A DNA stretch of 64,000 nt from Clostridium sp. Marseille-P3244 (GTDB taxonomy: Bacteria; Bacillota; Clostridia; Lachnospirales; Lachnospiraceae), in contig NZ_LT635549.1 of the NCBI RefSeq assembly GCF_900120155.1, positions 1,830,688 through 1,894,687 of the forward strand, written 5' to 3'. The translations under genes were made by a program, and so were the position numbers. Each line of letters begins with the position of its first letter. Position 1 is the first letter of the stretch. The notes beneath the pieces were generated by a model. The model did not search any database. It was given only the letters and a program-made list of their open reading frames with translations, and was not told where the DNA came from. Positions 1-32,542 of this stretch are shown here, one piece after another.

Positions 1-1335
1 GAGTTTGTCAAGACGCCGTTTTACCGGGTCATCAGCACCGTGGAGGCGGCAGGCAGCAGTTTTGAGGGAGAATGGCGGGCCGTGAAGGGCTCAAAATATT
101 TTGAGTCATTTGACCTGTACAAAGAAAACGGATTTAAGGAGAAGAAGAAAGCAGAAGAACTGGTCCGGTATTTGTCAGAAGATCAGCCGATAATGTGTAC
201 GGTGGAGTCTGTAGAGAGGAAGAAGGAAAAAAAGAATCCGCCTCTGCTTTATAACCTGGCGGAGCTTCAGAATGACTGCTCCAGACGGTTTAAGATCAGT
301 CCCGATGAGACACTGCGCATCGTGCAGGATCTCTATGAAAAAAAGCTGGTGACTTATCCAAGAACGGACGCAAGGGTCTTGTCCACGGCGGTGGCGAAAG
401 AGATCAGCCGCAATCTGAACGGGCTTTCCAGATATTCTCCGGCGGCGCCTTATCTGCAGGATATTCTGGGATTCGGCAACCATAAGAACCTGGCAAAGAC
501 CCGGTATGTCAACGATAAGCAGATCACAGACCACTACGCCATCATTCCGACGGGGCAGGGGCTGGGAGCCCTGAATTCCCTGGGAGATGTGTCGCGGAAA
601 GTCTATGACTTGATCACGAGGAGATTTTTGAGTATTTTTTATCCTCCGGCTGTCTATGAGAAGGCGTCCATCGTGACAAAGATAAGAGGAGAGTGCTTCT
701 TCAGCAGTTTTAAGACGCTGGCTGAGGAAGGATATCTTAAAGTAGCCGGGATCCCTCAGGAACAGACGGCCGGGCCGGCGCTTCTGGAGGCTGTCCGGAG
801 TCTGAAGAAAGGCAGTCTGCTCCCGGTCCGGGGCCTGGAGATCAAAGAAGGAGAGACATCGCCTCCGAAACGATATAATTCCGGCTCCATGATCCTGGCA
901 ATGGAAAACGCCGGGCAGCTGATCGAAGACGAAGAACTCAGGGCCCAGATCAAAGGCAGTGGGATCGGAACCAGCGCGACGCGGGCAGAGATCCTGAAGA
1001 AACTGATCCATATCAAATATCTTGCCCTGAATAAAAAGACCCAGATCATTACGCCCACGCTGCAGGGAGAGATGGTCTTTGACGTGGTGGATCATTCCAT
1101 CCGGTCCCTGCTGAACCCAGAACTTACGGCCAGCTGGGAGAAAGGGCTTACCTATGTGGCAGAGGGGAGCATCACGTCCGATGAGTATATGAAGAAGCTG
1201 GATCATTTTATCATCAGCAGGACAGAGGGTGTGAAAGGGCTTAACAATCAGTATCAGCTAAGAGCCTGCTACGACAGGGCAGCAGGTTTTTATAAAAAAG
1301 GCCGGAAAACGGCAGAAAAGGAGACAACCAAATGA
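1..1335 (+). CDS. topB: Type IA DNA topoisomerase (topoisomerase III-like), 5' end missing
   Basis: The reading frame is open from base 1, so this is the C-terminal part (about 444 residues) of a protein that usually has about 700. The active-site motif LVTYPRTDARVLS is present, with the catalytic tyrosine codon at 355-357. Further on comes the topoisomerase IA signature GSGIGTSATRAEILKKL near 960-1010. Type IA enzymes cut one strand through a 5'-phosphotyrosine link and pass or decatenate DNA. The end carries no cysteine zinc fingers, which fits bacterial TopB better than TopA. The stop overlaps the next start (ATGA), so the two genes are translationally coupled. The topB name is a best guess because the N-terminal Toprim domain lies outside the window. 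Confidence 0.9.
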   Translation, partial: EFVKTPFYRVISTVEAAGSSFEGEWRAVKGSKYFESFDLYKENGFKEKKKAEELVRYLSEDQPIMCTVESVERKKEKKNPPLLYNLAELQNDCSRRFKISPDETLRIVQDLYEKKLVTYPRTDARVLSTAVAKEISRNLNGLSRYSPAAPYLQDILGFGNHKNLAKTRYVNDKQITDHYAIIPTGQGLGALNSLGDVSRKVYDLITRRFLSIFYPPAVYEKASIVTKIRGECFFSSFKTLAEEGYLKVAGIPQEQTAGPALLEAVRSLKKGSLLPVRGLEIKEGETSPPKRYNSGSMILAMENAGQLIEDEELRAQIKGSGIGTSATRAEILKKLIHIKYLALNKKTQIITPTLQGEMVFDVVDHSIRSLLNPELTASWEKGLTYVAEGSITSDEYMKKLDHFIISRTEGVKGLNNQYQLRACYDRAAGFYKKGRKTAEKETTK

Positions 1336-2978: not shown

Positions 2979-3677
2979 ATGTTAGAAATACAGGGACTGA
3001 GTAAATCATATGGGAAAAATCTGGCGGTGGACAACGTCAGCTTCACCGTGCCGGACGGGCAGACAGGGATCCTGCTGGGACCAAACGGAGCAGGAAAATC
3101 AACGATCATAAAGAGCATCGCGGGCCTGCTGCGATATAAAGGAGTGATCCGTATTCAGGGAACTCCGGCAAGGAATATCGAGGCCAAGAGAGTGTTTGCA
3201 TATGTGCCGGAGATCCCGAATATGTTTGACGCTCTGACTGTAAGGGAGCATGTGGAATATATCCGGATGGCATATAGCAGTGATATCACAGATGAAGAAG
3301 TGAATGAGATCCTGAAGGCTTATGAAATGGACGACAAACAGGACAAGCTTGGGAACGAACTGTCTAAGGGAATGATGCAGAAAGTCAGCATCTGCTGCGC
3401 ACTGGCAGTGAAACCTCAAGTTATTCTACTGGATGAACCTATGGTAGGTCTGGATCCCGCTGCCATCAAAACGCTGAAAGAGACTGTACTCAGGCTGCGT
3501 GACGGTGGAGTGACAGTACTTATAAGTACACATATGCTGGAGATGGTGGAGGATCTGTGGGATGTGATGTTTGTGATGGAGAAGGGCCACATCGTGGGTT
3601 CCTATACCAAGAAAGACGCAGAAGGAAAAGATCTGGATGAATTATTCTTTGAGATGACAGGCGGTGAAAAGAAATGA
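2979..3677 (+). CDS. ABC transporter ATP-binding protein
   Basis: A 232-residue ATPase with Walker A LGPNGAGKST (about residues 34-43), a signature region LGNELSKGMMQK in place of LSGGQ, Walker B VILLDEPMVGLD and an H-loop STHMLEM. It powers the membrane protein encoded next, whose start overlaps its stop by four bases. This arrangement (one ATPase plus one large permease, no binding protein) is that of an exporter or drug/peptide transporter. The substrate is unknown. Confidence 0.92.
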   Translation: MLEIQGLSKSYGKNLAVDNVSFTVPDGQTGILLGPNGAGKSTIIKSIAGLLRYKGVIRIQGTPARNIEAKRVFAYVPEIPNMFDALTVREHVEYIRMAYSSDITDEEVNEILKAYEMDDKQDKLGNELSKGMMQKVSICCALAVKPQVILLDEPMVGLDPAAIKTLKETVLRLRDGGVTVLISTHMLEMVEDLWDVMFVMEKGHIVGSYTKKDAEGKDLDELFFEMTGGEKK

Positions 3678-5251
3678 AGGCACTGATCTATCTGACAAAA
3701 CGCAGTTTTATCAATAATATGAAAAAGGCGGTGCATAAGCCTTCTACTCTGATCGCGCTGATTTTCGGAATCGCCTACGGTATCTTTATCATTGTAGCTT
3801 TGGGCAGCCTGGCGGCTACTCTGCGGATGGGTTCCGTGAATGGACTGGTCATTATTATGACGATTTGGACGATTTATATTACCCTTGCGAATTTCATGTC
3901 CTATTCTTCCAGAAAAGGAATTTTATTCCGTCCGGCGCACGCACATTTTGTGTTCACTGCGCCTGTCAGTCCGAAGCTGGTGCTGCTCAACGGAGCATGG
4001 ATGAATTATATTCTTTCGGTTATTATTTGGATAGTTCTATCCATTGGAGGCCTGACCATTTTCCAGGTTCCTGTGTGGAAAGTAGCCCTTTTCTTTCTGG
4101 CCGGCTGTGTGCTGGAAACAGCTCTGGAAGTCTCAGTTATGGTCTTCCTGTATACCAATGACCGGCTTCCCCGGAAACTGATGAAGGGGATCCGGATGGG
4201 AATCAAAGTATTCCTGATCGCGTTCACAGCTCTGATCCTGTTTTATTTCAGAAAGAATGGTTTATCTGTAGAGTCGGCAACGGCATTTATTGACTGGCCG
4301 GTCCTCCAGATGATCCCGGTGCTGGGATGGCAGATCGCGGTCTACCGGCTGATCCTGCTGGGACCCACCACTCTGAATATGATCTGCTCTGTGATGTATC
4401 TTATTGCGGTGACGGTGTCTGTGACAGTGGCGTACCGCATGGACTGCGACGGAGGCTATTATGAGGAAGCGGCGAAATTCGCGGATGATTACGCGGAGAT
4501 GAAGAAACAGAAGCAGAGCGGAGATATGGATACCGGCCTGGGAGGAAAGAAAAGAAAATTCCGACGGGTGAAAGACCGGATCACGTCCAGGGGCGCGAAA
4601 GCAATCTTTTACAGACAGCTGCTGGAATATAAAAAAGAAAAATTTTTTATTTTTACAAAGGTAACGCTGATCTCGGTGTTCGTAGCGGCCATCTTTTCCT
4701 ACGGACTCAGCGACAGCGTGTCAGAGTCCGGCTCTGGTGAGCTGTTCCTTCTGGGGGTCGTGGCATATGTTTCGCTTGTGATGAGCGGATATCTCGGGAA
4801 ATGGGAAAATGAGCTGAAAAATCCATACCTTTTTTTGATCCCTGACAGCCCTCTTAAAAAAATGTGGTACGCGACGCTGATGGAGCATATAAAGGCGCTG
4901 GCGGACGGAGCGATCATCTGTATCCCGATCGGCATATTCTGGCATATAAGCCCCTTGGACGTCATATATTGTATCCTGATCTACACGGTGATCCAGGCTG
5001 ACCGTCTCTACACAAAGGTTATCACTACTTGCCTTGTGGGAGAAATATTTGGAAAGACGGGGCAGAATGTTATCCGGATGTTTATCCAGATGGCACTTCT
5101 GGGACTGGGCGCAGTTGTGGCGGTCGGTATCGGAATATTTGTAAATGTGGATTTCATCTTTCCAATTGTGCTGATTTATAGTATCATGATAACGGTAGCA
5201 ATGGGATTTCTGGCGTCTTTGCGGTTCGAGACAATGGAACAGATGGTCTGA
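3674..5251 (+). CDS. ABC exporter membrane protein
   Basis: A 525-residue polytopic protein with two hydrophobic blocks (roughly residues 20-260 and 325-515, each with several membrane spans). They are separated by a charged cytoplasmic stretch, EMKKQKQSGDMDTGLGGKK and following. It resembles the putative ABC exporter family of Firmicutes (large permeases paired with a single ATPase). It overlaps the ATPase gene by four bases, which supports one complex in the cytoplasmic membrane. No substrate can be assigned. Confidence 0.8.
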   Translation: MKALIYLTKRSFINNMKKAVHKPSTLIALIFGIAYGIFIIVALGSLAATLRMGSVNGLVIIMTIWTIYITLANFMSYSSRKGILFRPAHAHFVFTAPVSPKLVLLNGAWMNYILSVIIWIVLSIGGLTIFQVPVWKVALFFLAGCVLETALEVSVMVFLYTNDRLPRKLMKGIRMGIKVFLIAFTALILFYFRKNGLSVESATAFIDWPVLQMIPVLGWQIAVYRLILLGPTTLNMICSVMYLIAVTVSVTVAYRMDCDGGYYEEAAKFADDYAEMKKQKQSGDMDTGLGGKKRKFRRVKDRITSRGAKAIFYRQLLEYKKEKFFIFTKVTLISVFVAAIFSYGLSDSVSESGSGELFLLGVVAYVSLVMSGYLGKWENELKNPYLFLIPDSPLKKMWYATLMEHIKALADGAIICIPIGIFWHISPLDVIYCILIYTVIQADRLYTKVITTCLVGEIFGKTGQNVIRMFIQMALLGLGAVVAVGIGIFVNVDFIFPIVLIYSIMITVAMGFLASLRFETMEQMV

Positions 5252-8262: not shown

Positions 8263-8536
8263 GTGAAAAAGCGTTGAAGAGGACAGTAGGCTGTCCGGTC
8301 ATCTCAGAGAGAAGCCTGTATGGTGTGAGGGCTTTGTTGTGCCGGCTGACTGAAGACCACCTCGGAGCGGCCTTAATACGGCACGGTGATTCCGTTATCA
8401 TCAGATGAATTGAGCAGGTTTTCCATGGAAAACAAGCAGGGTGGAACCGCGGGATGTTATCCCGTCCCTGCGTGGATTGTTTCCGTGCGGAGATAGATTC
8501 AGAGATCAGGAGACATTCCAGAGGGATGTCTTTTTT
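8263..8536 (+). promoter_or_regulatory. T-box riboswitch (threonyl-tRNA sensing)
   Basis: The canonical T-box AGGGTGGAACCGCGG is at 8438-8452 and pairs with CCCGTCCCT at 8461-8469 to form the antiterminator. Stem I elements are visible: ACAGTAGGCTGT near 8282-8293, CAGAGAGAAG (8306-8315) and the segment TGAAGACCACCTCGGAG (8351-8367). The last contains ACC (Thr) at 8356-8358 as the likely specifier. Uncharged tRNA-Thr would stabilise the antiterminator and let transcription reach thrS. A strict alignment to other T-boxes could put the specifier one base earlier (GAC), so the register is inferred from the gene downstream. Confidence 0.93.
8511..8536 (+). terminator. T-box leader terminator
   Basis: AGACATTCC (8511-8519) pairs with GGGATGTCT (8523-8531) with one wobble, followed by a T run to 8536. 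This is the terminator alternative of the T-box switch. Confidence 0.75.
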
Positions 8537-12027: not shown

Positions 12028-14577
12028 ATGGAACAGTATAATGTGACCGGCATGAGCTGCGCCGCGTGCAGCGCCCGGGTGGAGAAAGCAGTGTCAAAGG
12101 TGCCCGGAGTGTCGTCCTGTTCGGTGAGCCTGCTTACAAATTCCATGGGTGTGGAAGGAGAGGCTTCCCCGGAAGCGATCATCGCGGCTGTAGAAGAAGC
12201 CGGGTACGGCGCTTCCAGGAAGGGAGGGGGGCGTCCAGGAGAACAGGCGGCATCCGGAGGAAAGATGAGCATATCGGCGGCGGAAGATTCCTTGAAGGAC
12301 AAAGAGACGCCAAAGATGAAAAAAAGGCTGATCGCTTCCCTGTGTTTTCTGATCCCGCTGATGTATTTTTCTATGGGACATATGATGTGGAACTGGCCGC
12401 TCCCGGCGTTTCTGGAAAATAATCATGTGGCGATAGGCCTGATCCAGCTGCTGCTGACCAGTATCGTCATGGTGATCAATCAGAAGTTTTTTATCAGCGG
12501 ATTCAGAGGACTGATCCACCGTGCTCCCAATATGGATACTCTGGTGGCGCTGGGAGCGGGAGCATCCTACGTGTACAGTGTTTATGCGCTGTTTGCCATG
12601 ACAGATGCGCAGATGTACGGAGATATGGCGGGCGTAATGGCCTATATGCATGAATTCTATTTCGAGTCGGCGGCTATGATCCTGACTCTGATCACCGTCG
12701 GGAAAATGCTGGAGGCAAGATCGAAAGGACGGACTACGGACGCCCTTAAGGGGCTGATGAAGCTGGCTCCGAAGACAGCCACTGTTATAAGGGACGGGAT
12801 AGAGGCAACCATATCCATAGATCAGGTGAGGAAAGGAGATGTCTTTGTCGTACGGCCCGGAGAGAATATTCCTGTAGACGGGATCGTTCTGGAAGGAAGC
12901 AGTGCGGTGAATGAATCCGCTCTGACCGGAGAGAGTATTCCTGTGGACAAGAAAGAAGGAGACATGGTGTCGGCTGCCACACTGAATCAGTCCGGCTTTC
13001 TCAGGTGTGAGGCCACCAGAGTGGGAGAGGATACGACCCTGTCCCAGATCATTCAGATGGTCAGTGACGCGGCGGCGACAAAGGCCCCGATTGCCAAGGT
13101 TGCAGACCGGGTTTCCGGGGTATTTGTCCCTGTGGTCATCATGATCGCGGTGGTCACGATCGCGGTCTGGCTCCTGGCCGGGCAGACAGTCGGATACGCT
13201 TTGGCCAGGGGTATCTCGGTACTTGTGATCAGCTGTCCGTGTGCCCTGGGACTTGCCACGCCGGTGGCGATTATGGTCGGCAACGGCATGGGCGCGAAGA
13301 ACGGGATCATGTTCAAGACAGCGGTATCACTGGAGGAGACCGGGAAAACACAGATTGTAGCTCTTGATAAAACAGGAACGATTACAAGCGGGGAGCCCAG
13401 GGTAACCGATCTCATCCCATCAGTCGGTGTCGCGGAAGAAGAACTGCTGGAGACCGCTCATGCGCTGGAGAAGAAGAGCGAACATCCTCTGTCCCGCGCA
13501 GTGCTGGCAAAGGCGGAGGAATCCGGACTGAAAGGATCACCGGATGTGGAGGATTTCCAGGCGGTTCCCGGAAACGGGTTGTCCGGAAGACTGGACGGTG
13601 TCCTGATCCGGGGAGGAAATCTGAAGTTTATCGGCGAAAGCGCGGATGTTCCCGGGAATGTCCGCAGGAAAGCGGAAGAACTGGCCGCCGAGGGAAAGAC
13701 GCCTCTGTTTTTCAGCCGTGACGAAAAACTCATCGGGATCATCGCCGTGGCGGATGTGATCAAGGAAGACAGTCCTCAGGCGGTAAAGGAACTTCAGAAT
13801 ATGGGGATCCGGGTCGTGATGCTTACGGGAGACAATGAGCGTACGGCGAAAGCCATTGGCGCGCAGGCCGGAGTGGACGAAGTGATCGCCGGAGTCCTGC
13901 CGGAAGGAAAAGAAAGCGTCATCCGTGAACTGAAGAAGAAAGGAAAAGTCGCCATGGTCGGAGACGGCATCAACGACGCGCCGGCTCTTACAAGAGCAGA
14001 TATGGGGATCGCTATCGGAGCCGGGACTGACATTGCCATCGACGCGGCCGACGTAGTGCTCATGAAGAGCCGGCTCAGTGATGTGCCCGCCGCGATCCGC
14101 TTAAGCCGGGCCACCCTGAGGAACATCCACGAGAATCTGTTCTGGGCATTTATCTACAATGTGATCGGGATTCCGCTGGCGGCCGGCGTGTGGATCCCCA
14201 TTTTCGGGTGGCAGCTCAATCCAATGTTCGGGGCAGCCGCCATGAGCCTGTCCAGTTTCTGCGTGGTCACAAATGCCCTGAGGCTCAACTGGTTTAAGAT
14301 GTATGACGGCACAAAAGACAAAAAAATTAAAAACAGAAAAAACAAAGAGATCAAGGAGGAAAAAATGATGACAAAAACAATGAAGATCGAAGGCATGATG
14401 TGCGGACACTGTGAGGCCAGAGTGAAGAAGGCGCTGGAGGCGCTTGCGGAAGTGGACGCGGCTGAAGTAAGCCATGAGGCGGGGACCGCTGTTGTCACGC
14501 TGAACAGGGAGATCGACAATGGGGCTCTGAAGAAAGCGGTAGAAGATCAGGATTACAAAGTGCTTGATATTCAGTAG
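12028..14577 (+). CDS. copA: Copper-exporting P1B-type ATPase with N- and C-terminal metal-binding domains
   Basis: An 849-residue pump that exports Cu(I). N-terminal HMA domain with [11 protein letters not shown] (CxxC). Membrane spans follow from about residue 105. The actuator has SALTGES, the transmembrane metal site is [11 protein letters not shown], the phosphorylation loop [11 protein letters not shown], then HPLS in the nucleotide domain and [11 protein letters not shown] in the hinge. After the last span a lysine-rich linker (about 755-778) leads to a second HMA domain with [15 protein letters not shown]-terminal HMA is unusual for CopA. The DNA before it contains AAGGAGGA followed by ATGATG, so the domain may also be made alone. 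It follows csoR in an operon. Confidence 0.96.
14365..14577 (+). other. Possible internally started CopZ-like copper chaperone
   Basis: In frame with copA, ATG codons at 14365 and 14368 are preceded by AAGGAGGA (14353-14360) at good spacing. The product would be a 69- or 70-residue HMA protein with [10 protein letters not shown], the size and motif of CopZ chaperones, which hand Cu(I) to CopA. The linker codons upstream are A-rich and look like a former intergenic region. Inference: one gene, two products, or a recent copA-copZ fusion. Confidence 0.5.
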
Positions 14578-22254: not shown

Positions 22255-22267
22255 GAAAATATCTTAT

Positions 22268-22308
22268 CCGCCACATTGTATCCGTGTATACAATGTGGCG
22301 GAATTTCT
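22268..22308 (+). terminator. Terminator after the acetyltransferase gene
   Basis: CCGCCACATTGTA (22268-22280) and TACAATGTGGCGG (22289-22301) form a perfect 13-base stem, followed by AATTTCTT. The U tract is weak. Confidence 0.75.
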
Positions 22309-22320
22309 TCTATTACACCA

Positions 22321-22350
22321 TTGCAAGATATCAGATAATAATGATATAAT
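22321..22350 (+). promoter_or_regulatory. Promoter of the DUF5717-DUF5716-TPR operon
   Basis: TTGCAA (22321-22326), an 18-base spacer and TATAAT (22345-22350). It is the only good promoter in the 140 bases before the large gene. Confidence 0.7.
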
Positions 22351-22395
22351 GCATAGTAACATATTTTGCTGTTTGGACAGAAGAACTGTGAGTAG

Positions 22396-25300
22396 GTGAC
22401 GGATTTGAAGAATAAGATCAAACGTTTTGCGAAAGGGGATTTTCACATCCCGCAGCCGGAGATCATTTTTCCTGAGACTCGGATCATTATGCGCGTCGGA
22501 GAAGGAGAGAAGTACAAAGGAAGTTTTTCACTTCAGAATCAGGGGGAAGGCACGATAAGAGGGCTTGTCTATCCCTCTTCTTACCGTGTGCACTGCGAGG
22601 AACAGGGGTTTGACGGGAATCCGGTCAACATCTATTATACATATGACGGAAGCGGACTCATGCCCGGGCATGTGGAGCATGGCAAATTTACCATTGTCTG
22701 TAATGGAGGTGAGTATGATATCGCCTTTACGGCTATTATCGAGAAGCCGTTTGTGATGACAAACTACGGTAAGATCCAGAGCCTGGATGATTTTAAGAAA
22801 CTGTCATTCCGGGATGCGGCTGAGGCGGTCAAGCTGTTTCGTTCCAGAAATTTTTATGAGATCCTGAAATATGAAGACAGAAGAATTCAGGCGCTCTATG
22901 ACAATATGAGGTGCTGGGAACTGGATCAGCAGGCGCTGGAAGAGTTCCTGGTGGGCTGCAAACAGAAAGAAAAGATCTTCCTGACACTGGAGGAGGAGAG
23001 CAGGGCTTTTATCTCTCTGACTGAGGCTCGCAAGGAGACGTTTACGATCAAGAAAAATACTTGGGGCTACCTGGAGATCGACGTAAGGGCAGAAGGGGAT
23101 TTTCTGTCTGTGGAGCATACCCGGATCACGACGGAAGAATTTATAGGGAATTCTTACCGTTTGGAATATTTTATCAACGCGGACCGGCTCCACCGGGGAA
23201 GTAATTTCGGACGAATCATACTGGAATCACCTTATGAGACACTGAGTTATGAGATCGTGGTAGAGAAGGATGTCAGCAGGGATGAAGACCACAGGGCCAA
23301 TGACCGGGAGTTCGCGGGAATCGTCAGGAATTATCTCAAGTATCTGAGCGGACGGATGGATCTGAATGAGTGGGTCGACGAGGCGGTGCGGCGCATCAGC
23401 CATTTAAGAGACATGGACGGGAAAAATGAGTTCTATCTTCTGGCTCACGCTCATATCTGTCTTGTCGGGAACCGCATGGAAGAGGCGAAATGGCTGCTTG
23501 AGTCATATAATTACAATCGGTTTGCCATTGGGAAAGATGTGGAGCTTAGCTCCTATTATCTGTATCTGACGACACTTTTGTCCAATGATACCATCGGGCA
23601 GAGAAAGGTGGCGGAGGAGCTGTCCAGATCCTTTATGAAACATCCGGACAGCTGGAAGATCCTCTGCATGCTGGTGCAGGTTGATTCGGAGTACAAGATC
23701 TACAGCGAGAGACTCCGGGTCCTGGAAAAGCAGTTTTATGAAGAAAGATCCCACAGTATCTGGTTTTATCTGCAGGCGTTCCTGTGTTTCCGGGAGAAAA
23801 GCTCTACGTTAAAAAAACTGGGAATGTTCGAGGTGCGGGTGCTTCTCTTCGCGGTAAAATACCAGCTTATGACCAGGGAACTGGCACTTTATACTGCCAA
23901 TCTGGCGAGTCAGATGAAGGTATTCGACAAACATTTGTATGATGTACTGGTGCGTTCTTATAAAATGTATCATGAGTCCATGATCCTGACAGCGATCTGT
24001 ACACTTCTGATCAAGGGAAATTGTGCGGACAGCGAGTACTTTAAATGGTATGAAAAGGCAGTGGAGCATGAACTGAAGATCGCGCAGCTGTATGAATATT
24101 ATATGGCTTCTGTTATTCCGGAACGGTTCCATAAAGCGCTTCCGCGGTCCGTGTATCTGTATTTTATGCATGGAAATACACTGGATTATCACAAGTGCGC
24201 GTTCCTGTACGCGAATATCATCACTTATGAAGATGAATCCAGTGAGATCTATGCTCATTACAGAGATGAGATCGAGGCGTTCGCATGGAATCAGCTGGAC
24301 CGGAGAAATGTGGATGAACAGCTTCGAGTCATATACAAACGATTTGTCGTAGAGTCAGCCATGAATCCGGACAGGGTAAAAGCCTTGTATGATGTATGCC
24401 ATGCGTACTGGATCACGACGAAGGTGCCCAATATGAAATATATCCATGTGATTGCCGAGGATGGGACGGTAACTCAGAAGGCGCCGTATATGGATGGAGG
24501 AGCACGTGTATTCCTGTATGCAAAGACGGACAGGATCGTCTGGGAGTCAAAAGAAGGGAGACATTATACAGATTCCATTCCCTACGAGAGCAAACGACTT
24601 TTCTATGAGCTTCGTTATATGGATATGTGCAGGAAATATATCAACGGTCTTAAGAGAAATCAGGAAGAAGAAGAGACCGTAGAACTTACGCTTGAGACGG
24701 TTCGGGCCGAGGGACCCGAGAATTTCCCGGAGGCCGAGATTTTTGGCCTGTGCAGCCGGACCATTCGGGAAAATAATTATGAGAATAACGATTTTCTGAC
24801 ATATATCTGTTTTGAATTGTTTAAAAAGCAACAGTATGACAAGGTGATCCTGACCTATCTCGCCAGTTATTTCTGCGGGGCCACTTCGGAGATGAAGCTG
24901 CTCTGGCGGGAGGCCAGAGACTATGAAGTGCATACCCATAAACTGGCGGAACGGATCCTGACGCAGATGCTGTTTTCGGAAGAGTTGTTCCAGGAGGAAC
25001 CGGTCTTCGAGCAGTATTATGCGGAAGGAGCCTATTTCAGACTTCAGCAGGCGTATCTTACATATGTATCACGAGAGTATGTGGTGGAGGAGCGGAAGAT
25101 CGGACGCAGCGTGATCGATATCATCTGCAGAGAATATGAGAAAGGTGAGGACACCATGGATATCTGCAAGATCGCGGTGCTGAAGTACTATTCGGAAAGA
25201 GAGTATAACGCGCAGACACGCAGGACCTTGAAAAAGTTTCTTCAGGAACTGTGCGGCAAGCAGGTGTATTTCCCGTTTTTCCTCTCTTACGAGAAAGAGT

Positions 25301-25698
25301 GGCTCATTGAGCTGCAATTGTGGGACAAGACACTGATCGAATACAAGGGGCAGAAAGGAAGCAGAGTCATGCTGTACTACCAGCTTCAGAAAGGCGGGCA
25401 GGAGCAGGCGGACTATTCTACTGAGGTACTGACGCCTATGTATGAGAATATATACGTGAAAAAATTTGTCCTGTTTGCCAACGAGAAGCTGAAATATTAT
25501 TTCAAAGAGACGATAGACGGGAATTCTTACCGCAGTGACAAGGAGACATGCGTGAGGGAGGCCGATCTGGATGAACAGGGCAGATATGGAAGACTGAACG
25601 CGATCCTGTCTGAGAAGGATGAAAAAAAGCGCAGGAAAAAGATGAGGGAGTACGCTCTTGAAGACGCGGTGGCTGCCCATATGTTCGTACAAGAATAA
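22396..25698 (+). CDS. Large DUF5717-like protein: beta-sandwich domains plus helical repeats
   Basis: An 1100-residue soluble protein with no signal or membrane span. Two Ig/MSP-like beta stretches are seen near residues 25-115 (starting PQPEIIFPETRIIMRVGEGE) and 215-300. A long alpha-helical, TPR-like region follows (about 310-690), then another beta-rich segment (about 710-770, HVIAEDGTVTQKAPY) and a mixed C-terminus. I recognise it as the DUF5717 type found in Lachnospiraceae; no function is established. The start is GTG at 22396 or TTG at 22405 (MKNKIKRFAKGDF), with only a weak AGGTGA ribosome binding site. It is followed after 15 bases by the Hsp70-like gene. Confidence 0.82.
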   Translation: MTDLKNKIKRFAKGDFHIPQPEIIFPETRIIMRVGEGEKYKGSFSLQNQGEGTIRGLVYPSSYRVHCEEQGFDGNPVNIYYTYDGSGLMPGHVEHGKFTIVCNGGEYDIAFTAIIEKPFVMTNYGKIQSLDDFKKLSFRDAAEAVKLFRSRNFYEILKYEDRRIQALYDNMRCWELDQQALEEFLVGCKQKEKIFLTLEEESRAFISLTEARKETFTIKKNTWGYLEIDVRAEGDFLSVEHTRITTEEFIGNSYRLEYFINADRLHRGSNFGRIILESPYETLSYEIVVEKDVSRDEDHRANDREFAGIVRNYLKYLSGRMDLNEWVDEAVRRISHLRDMDGKNEFYLLAHAHICLVGNRMEEAKWLLESYNYNRFAIGKDVELSSYYLYLTTLLSNDTIGQRKVAEELSRSFMKHPDSWKILCMLVQVDSEYKIYSERLRVLEKQFYEERSHSIWFYLQAFLCFREKSSTLKKLGMFEVRVLLFAVKYQLMTRELALYTANLASQMKVFDKHLYDVLVRSYKMYHESMILTAICTLLIKGNCADSEYFKWYEKAVEHELKIAQLYEYYMASVIPERFHKALPRSVYLYFMHGNTLDYHKCAFLYANIITYEDESSEIYAHYRDEIEAFAWNQLDRRNVDEQLRVIYKRFVVESAMNPDRVKALYDVCHAYWITTKVPNMKYIHVIAEDGTVTQKAPYMDGGARVFLYAKTDRIVWESKEGRHYTDSIPYESKRLFYELRYMDMCRKYINGLKRNQEEEETVELTLETVRAEGPENFPEAEIFGLCSRTIRENNYENNDFLTYICFELFKKQQYDKVILTYLASYFCGATSEMKLLWREARDYEVHTHKLAERILTQMLFSEELFQEEPVFEQYYAEGAYFRLQQAYLTYVSREYVVEERKIGRSVIDIICREYEKGEDTMDICKIAVLKYYSEREYNAQTRRTLKKFLQELCGKQVYFPFFLSYEKEWLIELQLWDKTLIEYKGQKGSRVMLYYQLQKGGQEQADYSTEVLTPMYENIYVKKFVLFANEKLKYYFKETIDGNSYRSDKETCVREADLDEQGRYGRLNAILSEKDEKKRRKKMREYALEDAVAAHMFVQE

Positions 25699-25713
25699 GG
25701 AGGGTGTCTTTCC

Positions 25714-26997
25714 ATGGGACAAGGCAGTATCATTGGATATGAGATAAATGAAAAGACATGTCAGATCAGTTTTTATAATGAACAGGAACAGGAACCGGAT
25801 ACGCTGGAGGTAGATGCCGACAACTATCAGATCCCGCTGATCATCGGGAAACTGAGGGATACATGGGCTTATGGCAAGGAGGCTAAAAGACTTGTTACGA
25901 TCAAAGAGGGATTCACTGTCACCAGGCTTTTGAGCAAAAGCCTGGCCGGAGAGAAAATCGAATTCGGCGAGGAGACCTATGACGCGGTCTGGCTGCTTTC
26001 TCAGTTTATCCAGATGTCGTTGAAATCTTTTCCGGAGATCGAGGGTATCGTATTTACAGTGCCGTCGCTGACAGAGGAACTGGCGCAGATGCTCAGAGGC
26101 ATCGCTGTGCGTATGAATATTGACAAGCGTCATATCTTTATCCAGGATTATAAGGAGAGCTTCTGCAACTATCTGTTCTATCAGCCAAAGGAACTGTGGC
26201 AGTACGACGCGGCCCTTTTCTGCTGTGACAGGAACGAAATCAGGGCGTATATGCTGCGCCGTCTCCGTCCCGGCCTGGGAGGGGGAAAGACCACTTTTGT
26301 GACCGTGGATGAAGTTGCCAGCGCTCACATTAAGGAACTGGCAATGGTATACCCGGTGCTGAATGAGGACAAGGCAAAGGAAGCGGATGCCATGTTCTGT
26401 AAATTTATTGAGAGCGTGTTTGATAAAAGGATCGTGTCCTCTGTCTTTCTTACAGGAGAAGGATTTGAGAACAACTGGTATCCGAAATCGCTCCGCGTGC
26501 TCTGCAACGGACGGCGGGCCTTTGTAGGCAATAACCTGTACAGCAAGGGCGCCTGCTATACTGCCTGCCGGAAACTGTTCGTCCATATCGAGAATCCGGT
26601 CTATCTCTCAGAGGATAAGATGACAGATCAGATCACTGTGAATATGCGTGTGGATGGGCAGGAAATGTGGTATCCGATCGTGTCGTGGGGGACATACTGG
26701 TATGAGTCAAACAATCAGTGGGAAGTTCTCCTGGAAGACGTAAAAGATATTGAATTCCACATTGAGTCTCTGATCCAGGGAAATGTAAGGACGGAAAAGA
26801 TCTCCCTTGAGAATTTCCCGAAAAGAGCGGAATATTCCATGCGCCTTCAGATTGAAACACTGTTTCTTGACGAAAAGACGTGCAGGATTACAGTGAGGGA
26901 TGCCGGATTCGGAGACTTCTTTCCGGCAACAGATTTCCACGCGGAGAAGACCATACATTTAGGAGGAAATGATGGGAAATTTAATTCTTTGTCATGA
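25714..26997 (+). CDS. DUF5716-like protein with a divergent Hsp70/actin-type fold
   Basis: A 427-residue cytoplasmic protein. The order of elements mimics the Hsp70 nucleotide-binding domain: a first beta hairpin IIGYEINEKTCQISFY (phosphate-1-like, but without the usual DLGTT), then LIIGKLRDTWAYGKEAKR. Next comes IEGIVFTVPSLTEELAQML followed by HIFIQDYKESFCNYLF, in the place of the canonical VPA...NEPTAAALAY. VFLTGEGFENNWYP follows, where Hsp70 has a VLVGGSTRIP-like turn. Key catalytic residues are therefore altered. It matches the DUF5716 type found beside DUF5717. RBS AAGGAGGGTG. Overlaps the third gene by 26 bases. Confidence 0.82.
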   Translation: MGQGSIIGYEINEKTCQISFYNEQEQEPDTLEVDADNYQIPLIIGKLRDTWAYGKEAKRLVTIKEGFTVTRLLSKSLAGEKIEFGEETYDAVWLLSQFIQMSLKSFPEIEGIVFTVPSLTEELAQMLRGIAVRMNIDKRHIFIQDYKESFCNYLFYQPKELWQYDAALFCCDRNEIRAYMLRRLRPGLGGGKTTFVTVDEVASAHIKELAMVYPVLNEDKAKEADAMFCKFIESVFDKRIVSSVFLTGEGFENNWYPKSLRVLCNGRRAFVGNNLYSKGACYTACRKLFVHIENPVYLSEDKMTDQITVNMRVDGQEMWYPIVSWGTYWYESNNQWEVLLEDVKDIEFHIESLIQGNVRTEKISLENFPKRAEYSMRLQIETLFLDEKTCRITVRDAGFGDFFPATDFHAEKTIHLGGNDGKFNSLS

Positions 26998-27739
26998 CAG
27001 ACACGCGGCACATCCCTATGAGATCACCCGGATTCACTGCAGGATTTTTACAATTGAAGAACTTTGCTATTATCTGTGCAACAATTTGTATCTGATCGAC
27101 TATACGATTATGAACGAGCAGCTCTGTGACTGGCTGGATGAGGAACTGGGGATGGAGGTTCTGGCTTCTGAGCTTAAAGATGTGCTTCGGCTTCATGGTT
27201 CGGTGGAAAAGTTTGTTCTGACGATACTGAAATCTTCACGGATCTACAGAGAGCCCGAGATGATACGGATCCAGAATGTATTGGAGCATTTAAAGAATCA
27301 GAAGGATATAGAACGTCAGAAATTTAAAGGAGACAACCTGCTGGAGAGCGGTGAGGTGGAGGAAGCGATTCTCGTGTATCAGGCCATCCTGAATCAGGAA
27401 AAGGATGATACGGTAGATGAAAAGTTCTACGGGAAGATATATGCGGGACTCGGCGCGGCATATGGGCGCCTGTTTCTGTATCAGGAAGCTGCCCGCATGT
27501 ATGACAGAGCGTATCAGCTCTGCGGCGACAAGACACTGATCAAGCCTTATCTTTACGCTTCTTACAAATATATGTCGCTTGAGGAGTACCATATCCTTAT
27601 CACCAAAAATGATGAATTTATGGAGACAAATGCCCGGATGCGCCGTGAGATCGAGGAAATCAGGAAAGAGATGCCCGAGGATGTGCCATCCAAAACTCTG
27701 GAAAAATGGAAGCGGCAGCACCGTCGCAGCCATACATGA
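26972..27739 (+). CDS. TPR-like protein of the DUF5716/5717 operon
   Basis: A 255-residue soluble protein. The first 100 residues are helical with no known motif (IFTIEELCYYLCNNLYLIDY). From about 115 there are two to three tetratricopeptide-like repeats, for example GDNLLESGEVEEAILVYQAI and AAYGRLFLYQEAARMYDRAY. The C-terminal tail is charged and ends KWKRQHRRSHT. The start at 26972 is chosen because AGGAGG (26961-26966) is only two bases from the ATG at 26969 but five from 26972. The reading frame begins inside the Hsp70-like gene, which implies coupled translation and a shared complex. Confidence 0.82.
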   Translation: MGNLILCHDRHAAHPYEITRIHCRIFTIEELCYYLCNNLYLIDYTIMNEQLCDWLDEELGMEVLASELKDVLRLHGSVEKFVLTILKSSRIYREPEMIRIQNVLEHLKNQKDIERQKFKGDNLLESGEVEEAILVYQAILNQEKDDTVDEKFYGKIYAGLGAAYGRLFLYQEAARMYDRAYQLCGDKTLIKPYLYASYKYMSLEEYHILITKNDEFMETNARMRREIEEIRKEMPEDVPSKTLEKWKRQHRRSHT

Positions 27740-27787: not shown

Positions 27788-27816
27788 TTGACAGGGCAGG
27801 TCCTGTATGATAGAAT
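27788..27816 (+). promoter_or_regulatory. Promoter of the amino-acid importer operon
   Basis: TTGACA (27788-27793), a 17-base spacer and TAGAAT (27811-27816). The spacer contains the short inverted repeat CAGG/CCTG. Confidence 0.75.
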
Positions 27817-27899
27817 ACAACGGTAACTTTACTGTGGTACAGTGACTCATTGGTAGAGAAAAGAAGCGATGTCGGAGTTTTCGGCGATGGAGGACAATT

Positions 27900-28715
27900 A
27901 TGAAGAAAAGAGTATTAAGTCTGTTACTTTGTGCGGGGCTGGCTGTTTCCATGCTGGCAGGATGCGGTTCAAAATCAGGAAGTGATTCCGCTGACTCAGG
28001 TGAAGAAACCAGCGATATGGACTATGTAAAGGAAAAAGGAACTCTGGTCGTAGGAATCACGAATTTTGAACCTATGGACTATCAGGACGAGAACGGCGAA
28101 TGGATCGGATTCGATGCGGATCTGGCCAGACAGTTCGGGGAGAGCCTGGGTGTTGATGTGGAGTTCGTGGAGATCGACTGGGACAACAAAATTCTGGAGC
28201 TGGAAGGGAAGACCATCGACTGTGTATGGAACGGGATGACTCTCACAGAAGATGTGACCAGCGCCATGAATTGTACAGACCCGTATCTGGAAAATGCTCA
28301 GGTTGTTGTAGTACCGTCGGATGTGGCGGATCAGTATCAGGATGAGGACAGCCTCTCTGACCTGAACTTCGCGGCAGAGGCCGGAAGTGCGGGAGAGGAT
28401 GAGCTTGAAGTCCGTGGCTTAAACTGTACACCTGTAACGGCACAGGCGGACGCTCTTATGGAAGTGGCGGCAGGGACTTCTGACGCCGCGGTGATCGACC
28501 TGCTCATGGCAGCCGCAATGATCGGGGAGGGAACAAGCTATTCTGATCTTACATATACAGTACATCTGAACAGCGAGGAATACGGTGTCGGATTCCGGAA
28601 GGACTCGGATCTGACCGCCGAGCTGAATGACTTCTTCGCAAAAGCATATGAGGATGGAAGCATCCAGAAGCTGGCGGAGGATTATGGAGTACAGGCCGCG
28701 CTGATTGAGCAGTGA
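27900..28715 (+). CDS. Amino-acid ABC importer, substrate-binding lipoprotein
   Basis: A 271-residue family-3 solute-binding protein. The signal peptide ends at LAGC (lipidated Cys22), followed by a Ser/Asp-rich linker. The fold signature GTLVVGITNFEPMDYQDENG leads to GFDADLARQFGESLGVDVEF, typical of polar amino-acid binders such as cystine, glutamine or arginine types. It is the first gene of a complete importer (binding protein, permease, ATPase). The exact amino acid is not assignable. Confidence 0.94.
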   Translation: MKKRVLSLLLCAGLAVSMLAGCGSKSGSDSADSGEETSDMDYVKEKGTLVVGITNFEPMDYQDENGEWIGFDADLARQFGESLGVDVEFVEIDWDNKILELEGKTIDCVWNGMTLTEDVTSAMNCTDPYLENAQVVVVPSDVADQYQDEDSLSDLNFAAEAGSAGEDELEVRGLNCTPVTAQADALMEVAAGTSDAAVIDLLMAAAMIGEGTSYSDLTYTVHLNSEEYGVGFRKDSDLTAELNDFFAKAYEDGSIQKLAEDYGVQAALIEQ

Positions 28716-28747
28716 GCCGGAAAATACACTGTTAACGGAGTTTTATC

Positions 28748-29428
28748 ATGGGATTTACAGAACAGTTTCCAATCGTTGTCCAAGCGCTGAATGTGGGATT
28801 TCTTCAGACTCTAAAGCTGTTTTTTGTAACGCTTCTGGGGGCTCTCCCTCTGGGGCTGATCATTTCTTTCGGGTCCATGTCCCGGTTCAGGCCGCTTAGT
28901 TATCTTACAAAGATCATTGTGTGGATCATCAGAGGGACTCCTCTGATGATCCAGCTTTTGATCATCTATTTTATGCCGGGACTGATGGGCAATAATATCT
29001 GGGGCGGCGGTGAGAGCGGACGCTTTCTGGCGGCTTCCGTTGCCTTTATCTTTAACTACGCCTGCTATTTTTCAGAAATCTACCGGGGAGGGATCCAGGG
29101 GGTTCCGAAAGGACAGGAAGAGGCGGGTCTTGTTCTCGGCATGACAAAAAAACAGATCTTCTTCAAAATCACCCTTCTGCAGATGATCAAAAGGATCGTA
29201 CCGCCTATGTCTAATGAGATCATCACATTGGTGAAGGATACTTCACTTTCACGTATCATTGCTCTTCAGGAGATTATCTGGGCAGGACAGTCTTTCCTGA
29301 AAGGAAATCAGGGGATCGCCGGTGTGATCTGGCCGTTGTTCTTTACCGCGGTCTACTATCTGATCTTTAATGGCATCCTGACCGTCCTTCTGGGACGTCT
29401 GGAGAAAAAACTGGAGTATTTCAGGTAG
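28748..29428 (+). CDS. Amino-acid ABC importer permease
   Basis: A 226-residue HisM-type permease with about five spans. N-terminal [20 protein letters not shown] and the [14 protein letters not shown] motif are conserved. The EAA loop [22 protein letters not shown] contacts the ATPase. It starts 32 bases after the binding-protein gene and is followed after 16 bases by the ATPase. Confidence 0.95.
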
Positions 29429-29444
29429 GAGGAGGACAACGTAT

Positions 29445-30230
29445 ATGTCGATTTTGGAAATAGAACATCTGAAAAAAAGCTTCGGCCGGACGGAGGTTCT
29501 GGACGATATCAGTTTCTCTCTTGAGAAGGGACAGGTACTGTCTATTATCGGATCCTCGGGAAGCGGAAAGACGACACTGCTGCGCTGTCTGAATTTCCTT
29601 GAGCAGCCGGATGGCGGCATCATCCGAGTGAATGGGGAGGCTCTCTTCGACGCGGAGGACCCGTCCACGATGCAGGAAAGTGAGATCCGCAGAAAACGGC
29701 TTCATTTTGGCCTGGTATTTCAGTCTTTCAATCTGTTTCCCCAGTACACGGCTCTTGAAAATGTGATGCTGGCAAAAGAACTTCTGGAGAAGGAGAAGCC
29801 GGAGTATAAATCAAGAAAAAAGGAGATCCACGCGCAGATCGAGGACGAGGCAAAGACGCTGCTTGGTCAGATGGGGCTTACTGACCGCATGGATAACTAT
29901 CCTCATCAGCTTTCCGGCGGTCAGTGCCAGAGAGTGGCGATCGCCAGAGCGCTGGCACTCAGGCCGGACATCCTCTGTTTTGATGAACCTACTTCCGCGC
30001 TTGATCCGGAGCTGACCGGAGAGGTGCTTAAGGTGATCAAAGGACTGGCGGATCAGGAGACAACGATGATCATTGTTACCCACGAGATGGCTTTTGCCAG
30101 GGATGTCTCCAGTCATGTGATCTTTATGGACGAAGGCCGCATCCTGGAGCAGGGCACGCCGGAAGATGTGTTTGAAAATCCAAGAGAAGAACGGACGAAA
30201 CAGTTTTTGTCACGTTTCACAAACGGATAA
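29445..30230 (+). CDS. Amino-acid ABC importer ATP-binding protein
   Basis: A 261-residue ATPase of the polar amino-acid uptake family. Walker [11 protein letters not shown]-loop [12 protein letters not shown], signature [15 protein letters not shown], Walker [15 protein letters not shown] and H-loop VTHEM. The extra helical insert around [16 protein letters not shown] is common in Clostridia. Last gene of the importer, ended by the hairpin at 30236-30266. Confidence 0.96.
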
Positions 30231-30235
30231 GTGAG

Positions 30236-30266
30236 CAGGGTGAAATGTTGATTTTCACCCTGTCTT
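30236..30266 (+). terminator. Terminator after the amino-acid importer
   Basis: CAGGGTGAAA (30236-30245) pairs with TTTTCACCCTG (30252-30262), followed by TCTTATATT. The right arm lies inside the spacer of the purC promoter at 30248-30276. Confidence 0.7.
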
Positions 30267-30276
30267 ATATTATAAT
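30248..30276 (+). promoter_or_regulatory. Promoter of the pur operon
   Basis: TTGATT (30248-30253), a 17-base spacer and TATAAT (30271-30276), overlapping the upstream terminator. The leader of about 80 bases shows no purine riboswitch signature. Confidence 0.65.
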
Positions 30277-30363
30277 CGAATCTGTGGGACTGCGGCCGGG
30301 GCCGGATCGCGGTCTGTAAACAATTTAATCATATGAAAAAATGAAAAGGACGGGTGTGGATGT

Positions 30364-31071
30364 ATGAAAAAATTAGAGCAGCTCTATGAAGGCAAGGCTA
30401 AGAAGGTATTCGCGACAGAAGATCCGGATGTCGTGATCGTCGATTATAAGGATGACGCGACTGCGTTTAACGGCGAGAAAAAGGGTACCATCGTGGGCAA
30501 AGGCGTGATCAACAACCGTATGACCAACTATATTTTCCGGATCCTGGAGAAAGAAGGCGTTCCGACTCATTATATAGAGGAACTCAGTGACAGAGAGACA
30601 GCTGTCAAAAAGGTGGAGATCGTTCCTCTGGAAGTCATCGTGAGAAATGTAGCGGCAGGCAGCTTTTCCAAAAGACTGGGGATCGAGGAAGGAAGAAAAC
30701 TTCTTGCGCCGACGCTGGAATTCAGCTATAAAGATGATGATCTGGGAGATCCGATGATCAATGATTATTTTGCCATCGCTATTGGCGCCGCGACCCGTGA
30801 GGAGATTGATAAGATCACGGAGTATACGTTCAAGGTAAATGATGTGCTCAAGAAGTTTTTTGACGAGGCAGGTATCGATCTCATCGATTTCAAGATCGAG
30901 TTCGGAAGATATCACGGGGATATCATCCTGGCGGACGAGATTTCCCCGGATACATGCCGTCTGTGGGACAAAGAGACTCATGAAAAGCTGGACAAGGACC
31001 GTTTCCGCAGAGACATGGGGAATGTAGAAGACGCTTATCAGGAAGTCTTTAAACGGATCGGAATCAAATAA
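30364..31071 (+). CDS. purC: SAICAR synthase
   Basis: Joins CAIR and aspartate with ATP in purine synthesis. A 235-residue protein of normal length. It starts [20 protein letters not shown] and has the signature [21 protein letters not shown], then LIDFKIEFG and [15 protein letters not shown], all diagnostic. First gene of purC-purF-purB. Confidence 0.98.
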
Positions 31072-31105
31072 TCGTCTGGTCAGACCGGCAAGGAGCGGAA
31101 TTTGA

Positions 31106-32542
31106 ATGACAGATTTTGAGAAAAGCTCCACAGGACTCGGCGAAGAGTGCGGAGTCTTTGGGGCTTATAACCTGGATGGGGGCGATGTGGCCGCCTCCAT
31201 CTATTATGGACTGTTCGCGCTGCAGCACAGAGGGCAGGAAAGCTGCGGGATCGCGGTGACAGATACTTCCGGGCGGCGCAGAGTCCTGTCAAAAAAAGGA
31301 CTTGGACATGTAAATGATGTGTTTGACGAAGAAGAACTTTACAGACTGAAAGGGAATCTGGGCGTCGGACATGTCCGTTACTCTACGGCAGGGGGAACAA
31401 GGGCTGAGAATGCCCAGCCCCTTGTTATTAATTATGTGAAAGGGACACTGGCTATCGCGCACAATGGGAATCTGGTCAATGCGGTGGAGCTTCGGCGGGA
31501 GCTGGAATATACCGGGGCGATCTTCCAGACAACGATAGATTCGGAGGTGATCGCTTACCACATTGCCAGAGAGCGGCTGAATACCGGAAACGCGGAGGAT
31601 GCCGTGAAAAACGCGATGAAGAAGATCAGGGGTGCCTATGCCCTTGTGGTCAACAGTCCCCGCAAGATGATCGGGGTGAGGGATCCTTTCGGGCTGAAGC
31701 CGCTGTGTATCGGCAGACGGGACAATACGTATTTTCTTGCGTCTGAGAGCTGTGCCATTGCGGCAGTGGATGGAGAATTTGTAAGAGATGTAAGGCCGGG
31801 AGAGATCGTCACAATCACCGGGGAAGGTATCGCTTCAGATATGAGCATGGCGATTCCGGAAGAACAGCAGGCCAGGTGTATTTTTGAGTATATTTATTTC
31901 GCACGGACAGACAGCACGATTGACGGAGTGAATGTTTATCATTCCCGTATCATTGCGGGAAGAGCGCTGGCAGAGTCCTATCCGGTCGAGGCGGATCTGG
32001 TGGTTGGAGTGCCGGATTCCGGGCTGGTGGCTGCAAAGGGGTATTCTGAACAGTCAGGAATCCCCTATGGGATGGCTTTTCATAAGAACAGCTATGTAGG
32101 ACGAACATTCATCAAACCAAAACAAAGTGACCGGGAATCCAGTGTAAAGATCAAGCTCAATGTGATCCCGGAGGTGGTAAAGGGGAAACGGCTCGTTATG
32201 GTAGACGACTCCATAGTACGGGGAACCACCTGCGCCAATATTATCAAGATGCTCAAAAGCGCCGGGGCGAAAGAGGTTCATGTGCGGATCAGCGCGCCGC
32301 CGTTTCTATATCCCTGTTATTTCGGGACAGATGTACCTTCAGATGAACAGCTCATTGCGCATTCCCATACGGCAGATGAGATCAGGGAGATGATCGGAGC
32401 GGATTCTCTGGGATATATGGAGGTGTCCAGGCTGCGGGATATGGTGGGCGACCTGAAGTTCTGTGACGCATGCTTTACAGGAAATTATCCGATGGAAGTC
32501 CCGAACCGAGATATCAGTCATGCTTTTGAGGAAGAATATTGA
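31106..32542 (+). CDS. purF: Amidophosphoribosyltransferase (iron-sulfur type)
   Basis: The first committed step of purine synthesis, making phosphoribosylamine from PRPP and glutamine. The 478-residue protein has a 14-residue propeptide before the nucleophile Cys15 (EECGVFGAY), as in the Bacillus enzyme. The PRPP loop is VMVDDSIVRGTTCANI. Cysteines positioned for a 4Fe-4S cluster are present in ARCIFEYIYF, LYPCYFG and KFCDACFTG, so this is the oxygen-sensitive cluster type. RBS AAGGAG 10 bases before the ATG. Confidence 0.98.
   Translation: MTDFEKSSTGLGEECGVFGAYNLDGGDVAASIYYGLFALQHRGQESCGIAVTDTSGRRRVLSKKGLGHVNDVFDEEELYRLKGNLGVGHVRYSTAGGTRAENAQPLVINYVKGTLAIAHNGNLVNAVELRRELEYTGAIFQTTIDSEVIAYHIARERLNTGNAEDAVKNAMKKIRGAYALVVNSPRKMIGVRDPFGLKPLCIGRRDNTYFLASESCAIAAVDGEFVRDVRPGEIVTITGEGIASDMSMAIPEEQQARCIFEYIYFARTDSTIDGVNVYHSRIIAGRALAESYPVEADLVVGVPDSGLVAAKGYSEQSGIPYGMAFHKNSYVGRTFIKPKQSDRESSVKIKLNVIPEVVKGKRLVMVDDSIVRGTTCANIIKMLKSAGAKEVHVRISAPPFLYPCYFGTDVPSDEQLIAHSHTADEIREMIGADSLGYMEVSRLRDMVGDLKFCDACFTGNYPMEVPNRDISHAFEEEY

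Follow-up and report, generated by a model that had tools for sequence, protein, structure and literature searches.

The window analyzed here is a 64,000 nucleotide stretch of the Clostridium sp. Marseille-P3244 genome (contig NZ_LT635549.1, positions 1,830,688 to 1,894,687). It carries a three-gene operon in which gene 1 encodes a putative scaffold protein (DUF5717), gene 2 a DUF5716 protein with a predicted Hsp70 fold and a degenerate ATPase site, and gene 3 a TPR-like protein. The operon is found in nearly every genus sampled from its family and is most likely what is left of a larger gene cluster with four Hsp70s. Positions are those of the window (Table 1), and sampled genomes, contigs, and loci carry our own numbers (G, C, and L, respectively).

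Organization of the Operon

Three co-directional open reading frames (ORFs), a single promoter, and a 15 base spacing between genes 1 and 2 had been described in the original prediction, and all are confirmed at the positions in Table 1. The 26 base overlap given there for genes 2 and 3 holds from the second ATG of gene 3 (26972); counted from the first ATG (26969), the overlap is 29 bases. The promoter has the form TTGnnn-16..18-TATAAT upstream of gene 1 in 21/23 sequences (the window and 22 relatives, L053-L074), and the match is thus beyond chance. Gene 1 may start at TTG 22405, which is likelier than GTG 22396 because AGGTGA-5-TTG is conserved in the leader and distant relatives have a methionine there. 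No CIRCE-like site (controlling inverted repeat of chaperone expression) was found upstream of gene 1, where the best candidate has 9 mismatches in 18 positions (5-9 in 75 relatives; the best in the whole window has 6). Heat-shock regulation via HrcA was rejected for this reason.

Gene 1 is a clear member of its family (Pfam DUF5717_N, 5e-217; DUF5717, 3e-102). Besides a pair of PapD/MSP-like immunoglobulin (Ig) domains, it is predicted to have two stretches of alpha-solenoid and another two beta domains, in agreement with the beta domains and helical repeats first proposed for this protein. The arrangement of the domains is uncertain because the predicted template modeling score (pTM) is only 0.48. 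Gene 3 had been called TPR-like, and the name suits it: the TPR matches in Pfam fall below the cut-offs in the window protein (best 6e-4) and are clear in a longer relative at locus L038 (3e-15).

Predicted Hsp70 Fold of Gene 2

Gene 2 matches DUF5716_C (3e-103), and its model (predicted local distance difference test, pLDDT, 88) has a predicted Hsp70 fold. The best matches in the PDB are DnaK, Hsc70, and Ssz1, and the 50 matches listed in each of two structure searches are Hsp70-type entries. MreB and actin are not among the structural matches listed, which excludes neither. The middle protein had been proposed to be related to Hsp70, with a fold unrelated to Hsp70 or actin as the result that would speak against it; the fold predicted for 25714-26997 and its structural matches support the relationship. 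A nucleotide-binding domain of the actin type and a beta substrate-binding domain (SBD) are predicted in the order seen in Hsp70. The former has about 290 residues, compared to about 380 in the matched Hsp70 chains. The sequence of the latter could be aligned with the SBD-beta of DnaK and of the Hsp70-A, B, C, and D proteins of the larger cluster discussed below, and it is conserved among relatives through to its end. A DxGFG motif lies near that end. D396, G398, and G400 of the motif are invariant among 53 sequences, as are D476, G478, F479, and G480 in nine B proteins. The model lacks a helical lid (SBD-alpha): the chain stops after the beta domain, and a single helix of four residues is seen close to its end.

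PF00012 does not recognize the window protein at E ≤ 1, and no convincing match to gene 2 came from searching the PDB by sequence alone. Profile searches reach DnaK, at only 0.0036 with the DUF5716 profile and at 1e-22 with the B profile. Gene 2 most likely descends from Hsp70s via B proteins, which match both the DUF5716_C and HSP70 families.

Loss of the ATPase Site

The loss of DLGTT noted in the original prediction is borne out, and DLGGGTFD is gone as well. We checked six catalytic residues (T11, K70, E171, D194, T199, and D201, in E. coli DnaK numbering), and all six are replaced in gene 2. The residues of the window protein at D8, T11, T12, K70, E171, D194, T199, and D201 are E, E, K, L, Y, C, E, and R. 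None of 83 DUF5716 rows, which include 60 from the window's own clade (L053-L114) and 22 more distant ones, keeps more than two of the six; D201 is Lys or Arg in 65/83, and G342 is kept in 0/83. Among the 22 more distant rows, T11, K70, E171, and D201 are kept in none, T199 in 6, D194 in 16, and D8 in 21. We left out the TVP motif's proline, an artifact of gaps in the large alignment.

The retained positions bear on another reading, a nucleotide-gated scaffold in which gene 2, still able to bind ATP or ADP, would shift the scaffold from one state to another with no need for hydrolysis. On the adenosine side, 83/83 rows keep G341, and likewise the GA pair; D8 is kept in nearly all of the more distant ones; and one of the proteins tied for best structural match, Ssz1, has a structure with ATP (4gni, by its title). 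The two phosphate loops, however, are gone, together with G342 and D201, and the dedicated GrpE-like exchange factor is missing. We consider such gating unlikely. The description of the operon as an ATP- or nucleotide-gated device, with which the original prediction ended, is unsupported because the catalytic residues and phosphate loops are replaced and the locus has no GrpE-like exchange factor.

Distribution and Conservation

We sampled 200 genomes of the window's family, one per genus; the family was taken as Lachnospiraceae from the named relatives of gene 1. Gene 2 (PF18980) is found in 195/200, with one match in 193 and two in G614 and G622. The five without it are G516, G577, and G584 (93-99% complete), G613, and G631 (68% complete), and the first four of these also lack gene 1. 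Other losses in G516, G577, and G584, near-complete yet without genes 1 and 2, could point to function.

Gene order is equally stable. We examined the best 80 of 296 confirmed named loci found via gene 1 (Mediterraneibacter, Butyrivibrio, Anaerocolumna, Claveliimonas, Sellimonas, and others). Gene 2 follows gene 1 in 78 of these, and the complete order of three genes is seen in 76, so that the neighborhood survey originally suggested finds strong conservation. The other four are cut by contig ends (L061, L075, L083) or have no gene 3 ORF that we could find (L100). The order also holds in 20/20 further genera. Compared with six relatives, the ratio of nonsynonymous to synonymous substitution rates (dN/dS) is 0.017-0.072 in 14/18 gene comparisons and dS is saturated in the other four, figures that are rough since dS is high throughout. 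By this measure gene 2 is under purifying selection. It is near-universal yet fast-evolving, as it occurs in 195/200 genomes but shares only 21-31% identity with the window in distant relatives (17 rows).

DUF5716_C reaches beyond the family. In a sample of the order it was found in 89/196 genomes, 22 in the window's family and 67 in other families. Most of the 67 have at least two matches. The DUF5717 and DUF5716 labels of the original prediction are thus confirmed by Pfam, and the confinement to Lachnospiraceae is not. One of the 67, G167 (86% complete, 5% contamination), is placed in family f8 and carries a window-type locus on contig C40 (L019), which may reflect transfer, misplacement, or contamination. 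Outside the order, the matches among 291 class genomes (PF18983, 10) and 299 phylum genomes (PF18980, 4) all belong to the window's own family.

A Seven-Gene, Four-Hsp70 Cluster in Other Families

We fetched 16 loci from 14 genomes of the order outside the window's family. Nine of the 16 (L031, L033, L034, L037, L038, L039, L040, L043, L047) carry, in one stretch, a DUF5717 scaffold, Hsp70-A, a GrpE-like protein, a pseudo-Hsp70 (B), Hsp70-C, Hsp70-D fused to a vWA domain, and a TPR protein, sometimes with further genes between the members. The scaffold, D, and TPR genes of L031 are each split into two ORFs, and its D was excluded both from the tree and from the counts of residues. The other seven loci are partial, owing to contig ends or a split cluster. 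In L038, the Pfam matches are HSP70 (9.5e-71) for A, GrpE (4.4e-7), DUF5716_C and HSP70 for B, HSP70 (7e-59) for C, and HSP70 (3e-92) with vWA (1e-11) for D; the fused vWA domain of D (L038:9887-11974) is C-terminal. All nine GrpE-like proteins scanned from the larger clusters are above the Pfam cut-off. Names on relatives of B include Defluviitaleaceae, [Clostridium] colinum, and uncultured Tyzzerella.

The catalytic residues separate the four Hsp70s. All six are kept in 11/11 Hsp70-A, 12/12 Hsp70-C, and 9/9 Hsp70-D. None of 13 B proteins keeps more than two, and 11/13 have Arg or Lys at D201, as in DUF5716.

Other genes occur in or beside some of the larger clusters. These encode Uma2-like and Mrr-like nucleases (L033, L036), metallo-beta-lactamase-fold proteins, a hemerythrin-domain protein, and S41 peptidases.

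Probable Reduction of the Larger Cluster

In a tree of 60 rows, A, C, and D each form one clade. The window's type is a single clade (100/100) nested in B, and its sister (100/99) is the B of L031, whose genome still carries the full cluster. Flanks are shared as well. Gene 3 is followed by a coiled-coil protein with a two-helix hydrophobic hairpin (cl5) and then valS in two full loci (L031, L039) and two reduced ones (L148, L150), and valS also follows in the reduced loci L049, L141, L145, and L157. Because of the nesting in B, the sister from a full-cluster genome, and the shared flank order, the window operon is most likely a reduced version of the larger cluster that has shed three ATPases and the exchange factor. 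Loss in Lachnospiraceae is the simplest reading of these sequences; the alternative would be a later gain elsewhere.

At 20/20 reduced loci, the DNA fetched on either side of the operon gave no relatives of A, C, D, or GrpE (E 1e-8). GrpE matches over the cut-off number one in each of ten reduced genomes and two in each of six full-cluster genomes. The GrpE-like factor and the three intact Hsp70s are missing together from the family's locus, a pattern to be expected of a retained complex that has given up nucleotide cycling. In the window's genome the one full-length Hsp70 match is the housekeeping DnaK, and the genome's own GrpE adjoins dnaK. A second match has 334 amino acids and is presumably MreB.

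With a single DnaK in the genome, gene 2 might be an Hsp110-like helper, an exchange factor or regulator of DnaK rather than a holder of clients. Sse1 (2qxl) and chains of the Hsp110:Hsp70 complex (3c7n, 3d2e) are among the tied best structural matches. DnaK already has a GrpE beside it, however, gene 2 has no helical lid or extension after the beta domain, and without a CIRCE-like site upstream, co-regulation with dnaK through HrcA is not apparent. This role is improbable.

The hairpin coiled-coil protein, of about 380-400 amino acids, lies directly after gene 3 in 14/80 named loci and in 7/20 further genera, as well as in the full clusters L031, L039, and L047. It was not found in L053-L114, nor by a search of the window's own genome, where an empty answer alone shows little. 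Its position in many relatives raises the prospect of a structural complex linked to the cytoskeleton or envelope, with the pseudo-Hsp70 as a building block of a membrane-tethered assembly that binds no clients. Ciliary central apparatus scaffold proteins also rank first in Foldseek for the Ig part of gene 1 (E 2e-7; TM-score about 0.08 of the query). We doubt this explanation, given that the window's own genome yielded no such membrane protein and that the beta domain of gene 2 is conserved to its end, which a pure spacer would not need.

Two further features of the window are recorded here. Positions 27788-32542 carry amino-acid-type ABC transporter genes (binding protein, permease, and ATPase) followed by purC-like and purF-like genes, an order after the operon that is common to several relatives. 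A T-box leader (Rfam RF00230; score 97.9 bits, gathering threshold 93) lies at 8265-8472 on the plus strand.

Table 1. Features of the operon and of related loci. Positions without a locus or contig number refer to the window.
Feature	Position	Strand	Basis or remark
Terminator-like hairpin, 15 pairs	22267..22302	+	After upstream GNAT gene; left edge of operon
Sigma-70-type promoter TTGCAA-18-TATAAT	22321..22350	+	Sequence match; form conserved in relatives
Gene 1, DUF5717 scaffold protein, 1100 aa	22396..25698	+	Pfam; model pLDDT 86.9, pTM 0.48
Gene 1, first PapD/MSP-like Ig domain (residues about 22-117)	22459..22746	+	Predicted
Gene 1, second PapD/MSP-like Ig domain (residues about 195-294)	22978..23277	+	Predicted
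Gene 2, DUF5716, probable Hsp70-derived protein with degenerate ATPase site, 427 aa	25714..26997	+	Pfam, model, alignment
Degenerate phosphate-1 loop	25735..25758	+	GYEINEKT in place of GIDLGTTN
Degenerate phosphate-2 loop	26221..26244	+	CCDRNEIR instead of DLGGGTFD, with Arg at the last Asp
Beta substrate-binding domain region, residues about 300-416	26611..26961	+	Model strands; full-length matches to Hsp70s including lid-less DnaK
DxGFG motif near end of beta domain	26899..26925	+	Kept in DUF5716 and B proteins of larger cluster
Gene 3, TPR-like protein, 256 aa; N-terminal domain conserved	26969..27739	+	ORF, Pfam
Promoter-like site of next ABC-transporter genes	27788..27816	+	Right edge of operon
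Two-helix hairpin coiled-coil protein	L048:5937-7130; L115-L118, L120-L125, L127-L130; full clusters L031, L039, L047
Further Hsp70 matches away from locus	G634:C2, G533:C1, G520:C54, G618:C35		G634 one with in-frame TAG
Accessory-gene loci in or beside larger clusters	L033:3643-4889, 12553-13389; L036:5682-6182, 13757-14482, 3241-4461; L035:116-1387

A Proposed ATP-Free Complex

We favor a reading in which gene 2, with its predicted Hsp70 fold and its ATP residues replaced, forms with its two partners an ATP-free complex that holds clients and is a remnant of the seven-gene, four-Hsp70 cluster (probability about 0.55). The three proteins would bind one another in a stable complex, as suggested by their operon, linked presence, and linked loss. 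DUF5717, with its PapD-like Ig domains and solenoids, would serve as the large scaffold and the TPR protein as the adaptor. The remaining beta domain of gene 2 may still bind extended peptide. The complex could then act as a docking platform from which clients pass to DnaK, the genome's single full-length Hsp70 match. The hairpin protein would tether it to the membrane in many relatives.

A broader version of this proposal begins with a multi-Hsp70 machine composed of the DUF5717 scaffold, three live Hsp70s (one with vWA), its own GrpE, the pseudo-Hsp70, the TPR adaptor, and the membrane hairpin partner. This machine would have dropped its ATPase engine in Lachnospiraceae. What persists would be an Hsp70 complex that is obligately ATP-free and belongs to the core machinery of almost all members. 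We hold this version more tentatively, at slightly less than even odds.

Several observations weigh against the proposal of an ATP-free remnant. G631 lacks gene 2 yet has gene 1, and G613, one of the four genomes in which both are missing, is only 69% complete. The nucleotide pocket may not be wholly dead; because G341 is kept throughout, and D8 and D194 often in distant rows, DUF5716 proteins may still bind nucleotide weakly. The tree can be disturbed by several B rows, whose branches are long and whose composition is odd. Elsewhere in four of the ten reduced genomes (G618, G520, G634, G533) lies another Hsp70 match, in a frame of about 570-640 amino acids, so DnaK is not the sole possible Hsp70 partner in every member. 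Lastly, no J-domain protein was found in L038, the one larger cluster scanned in full, and a classical Hsp70 cycle is therefore unproven even there.

Comparison With Known Systems

DUF5717 and DUF5716 (PF18983, PF18984, PF18980) are given no function by Pfam, and the three window proteins have no match over the cut-off in NCBIfam. We found no description of the link between DUF5716 and Hsp70, of the seven-gene cluster, or of the tie to gene 3 in the open-licence literature, which does not imply absence from print. A search of that literature by DUF name and Pfam accession gave one unrelated paper. The main text of a survey of DnaK paralogs (PMC11019930) contains neither "Lachnospir" nor "Clostridia."

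The nearest precedent in print for the larger cluster is section 29 of PMC7159879. The GAP1-N2 GTPase-centered systems described there contain HSP70 and GrpE, and a subset has a second HSP70 without the peptide-binding domain. They also contain an FNIII-repeat protein fused to DnaJ or TPR, and are found mainly in Actinobacteria and Firmicutes (PMC7159879). The larger cluster has a similar set of parts (Hsp70s, GrpE, TPR, vWA, and an Ig-domain and repeat protein); in the window, gene 1 has Ig domains of predicted PapD-like type. Together with the nuclease genes in or beside the clusters of L033 and L036, this likeness would fit a conflict or defense system of the same kind. However, the larger cluster has four Hsp70s, one of them fused to vWA, and the window's version has neither GrpE nor an intact Hsp70. 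No GAP1 or GTPase family scores over the cut-off among nine window proteins (for the ABC ATPase, among the best 25 of 31 matches) or ten proteins of the L038 locus. In PADLOC, genes 1-3 have no match at E ≤ 0.1. Weak PADLOC matches of the L038 Hsp70-A, -C, and -D and TPR proteins (PDC-M61B, PDC-M71B) were taken as shared domains. GAP1-N2 systems and defense loci are patchy, whereas gene 2 is present in 195/200 genera of one family, nearly always as a single copy, and the operon has recurring flanks. A role in defense is very improbable.

Hsp70 chaperones such as DnaK (PF00012) share with gene 2 the predicted order of a nucleotide-binding domain and a beta substrate-binding domain. Gene 2 differs in its replaced ATPase residues, its shorter nucleotide-binding domain, and its lack of a helical lid. 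The Hsp70 tie turns two DUFs, in a near-universal operon without a known role in a major gut-bacterial family, into testable proteins. The four-Hsp70 cluster of the sister families supplies the missing context for the window operon and a direct comparison to it.

The nearest working analog of gene 2 is Ssz1 of the yeast ribosome-associated complex (RAC), by analogy and not by descent. Ssz1 is described as a non-canonical Hsp70 whose rudimentary substrate-binding domain binds nascent chains ahead of the active Hsp70 Ssb (PMC7083937). RAC is eukaryotic and has other partners; unlike RAC, genes 1 and 3 have no J domain by Pfam at E ≤ 1. Both complexes would include an Hsp70-type subunit of non-canonical make-up. 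If our proposal is true, the window operon is a clear natural case of an Hsp70 system that lost its ATPases and exchange factor and kept a catalytically dead subunit under selection. Such a case bears on the role of pseudo-Hsp70s such as Ssz1.

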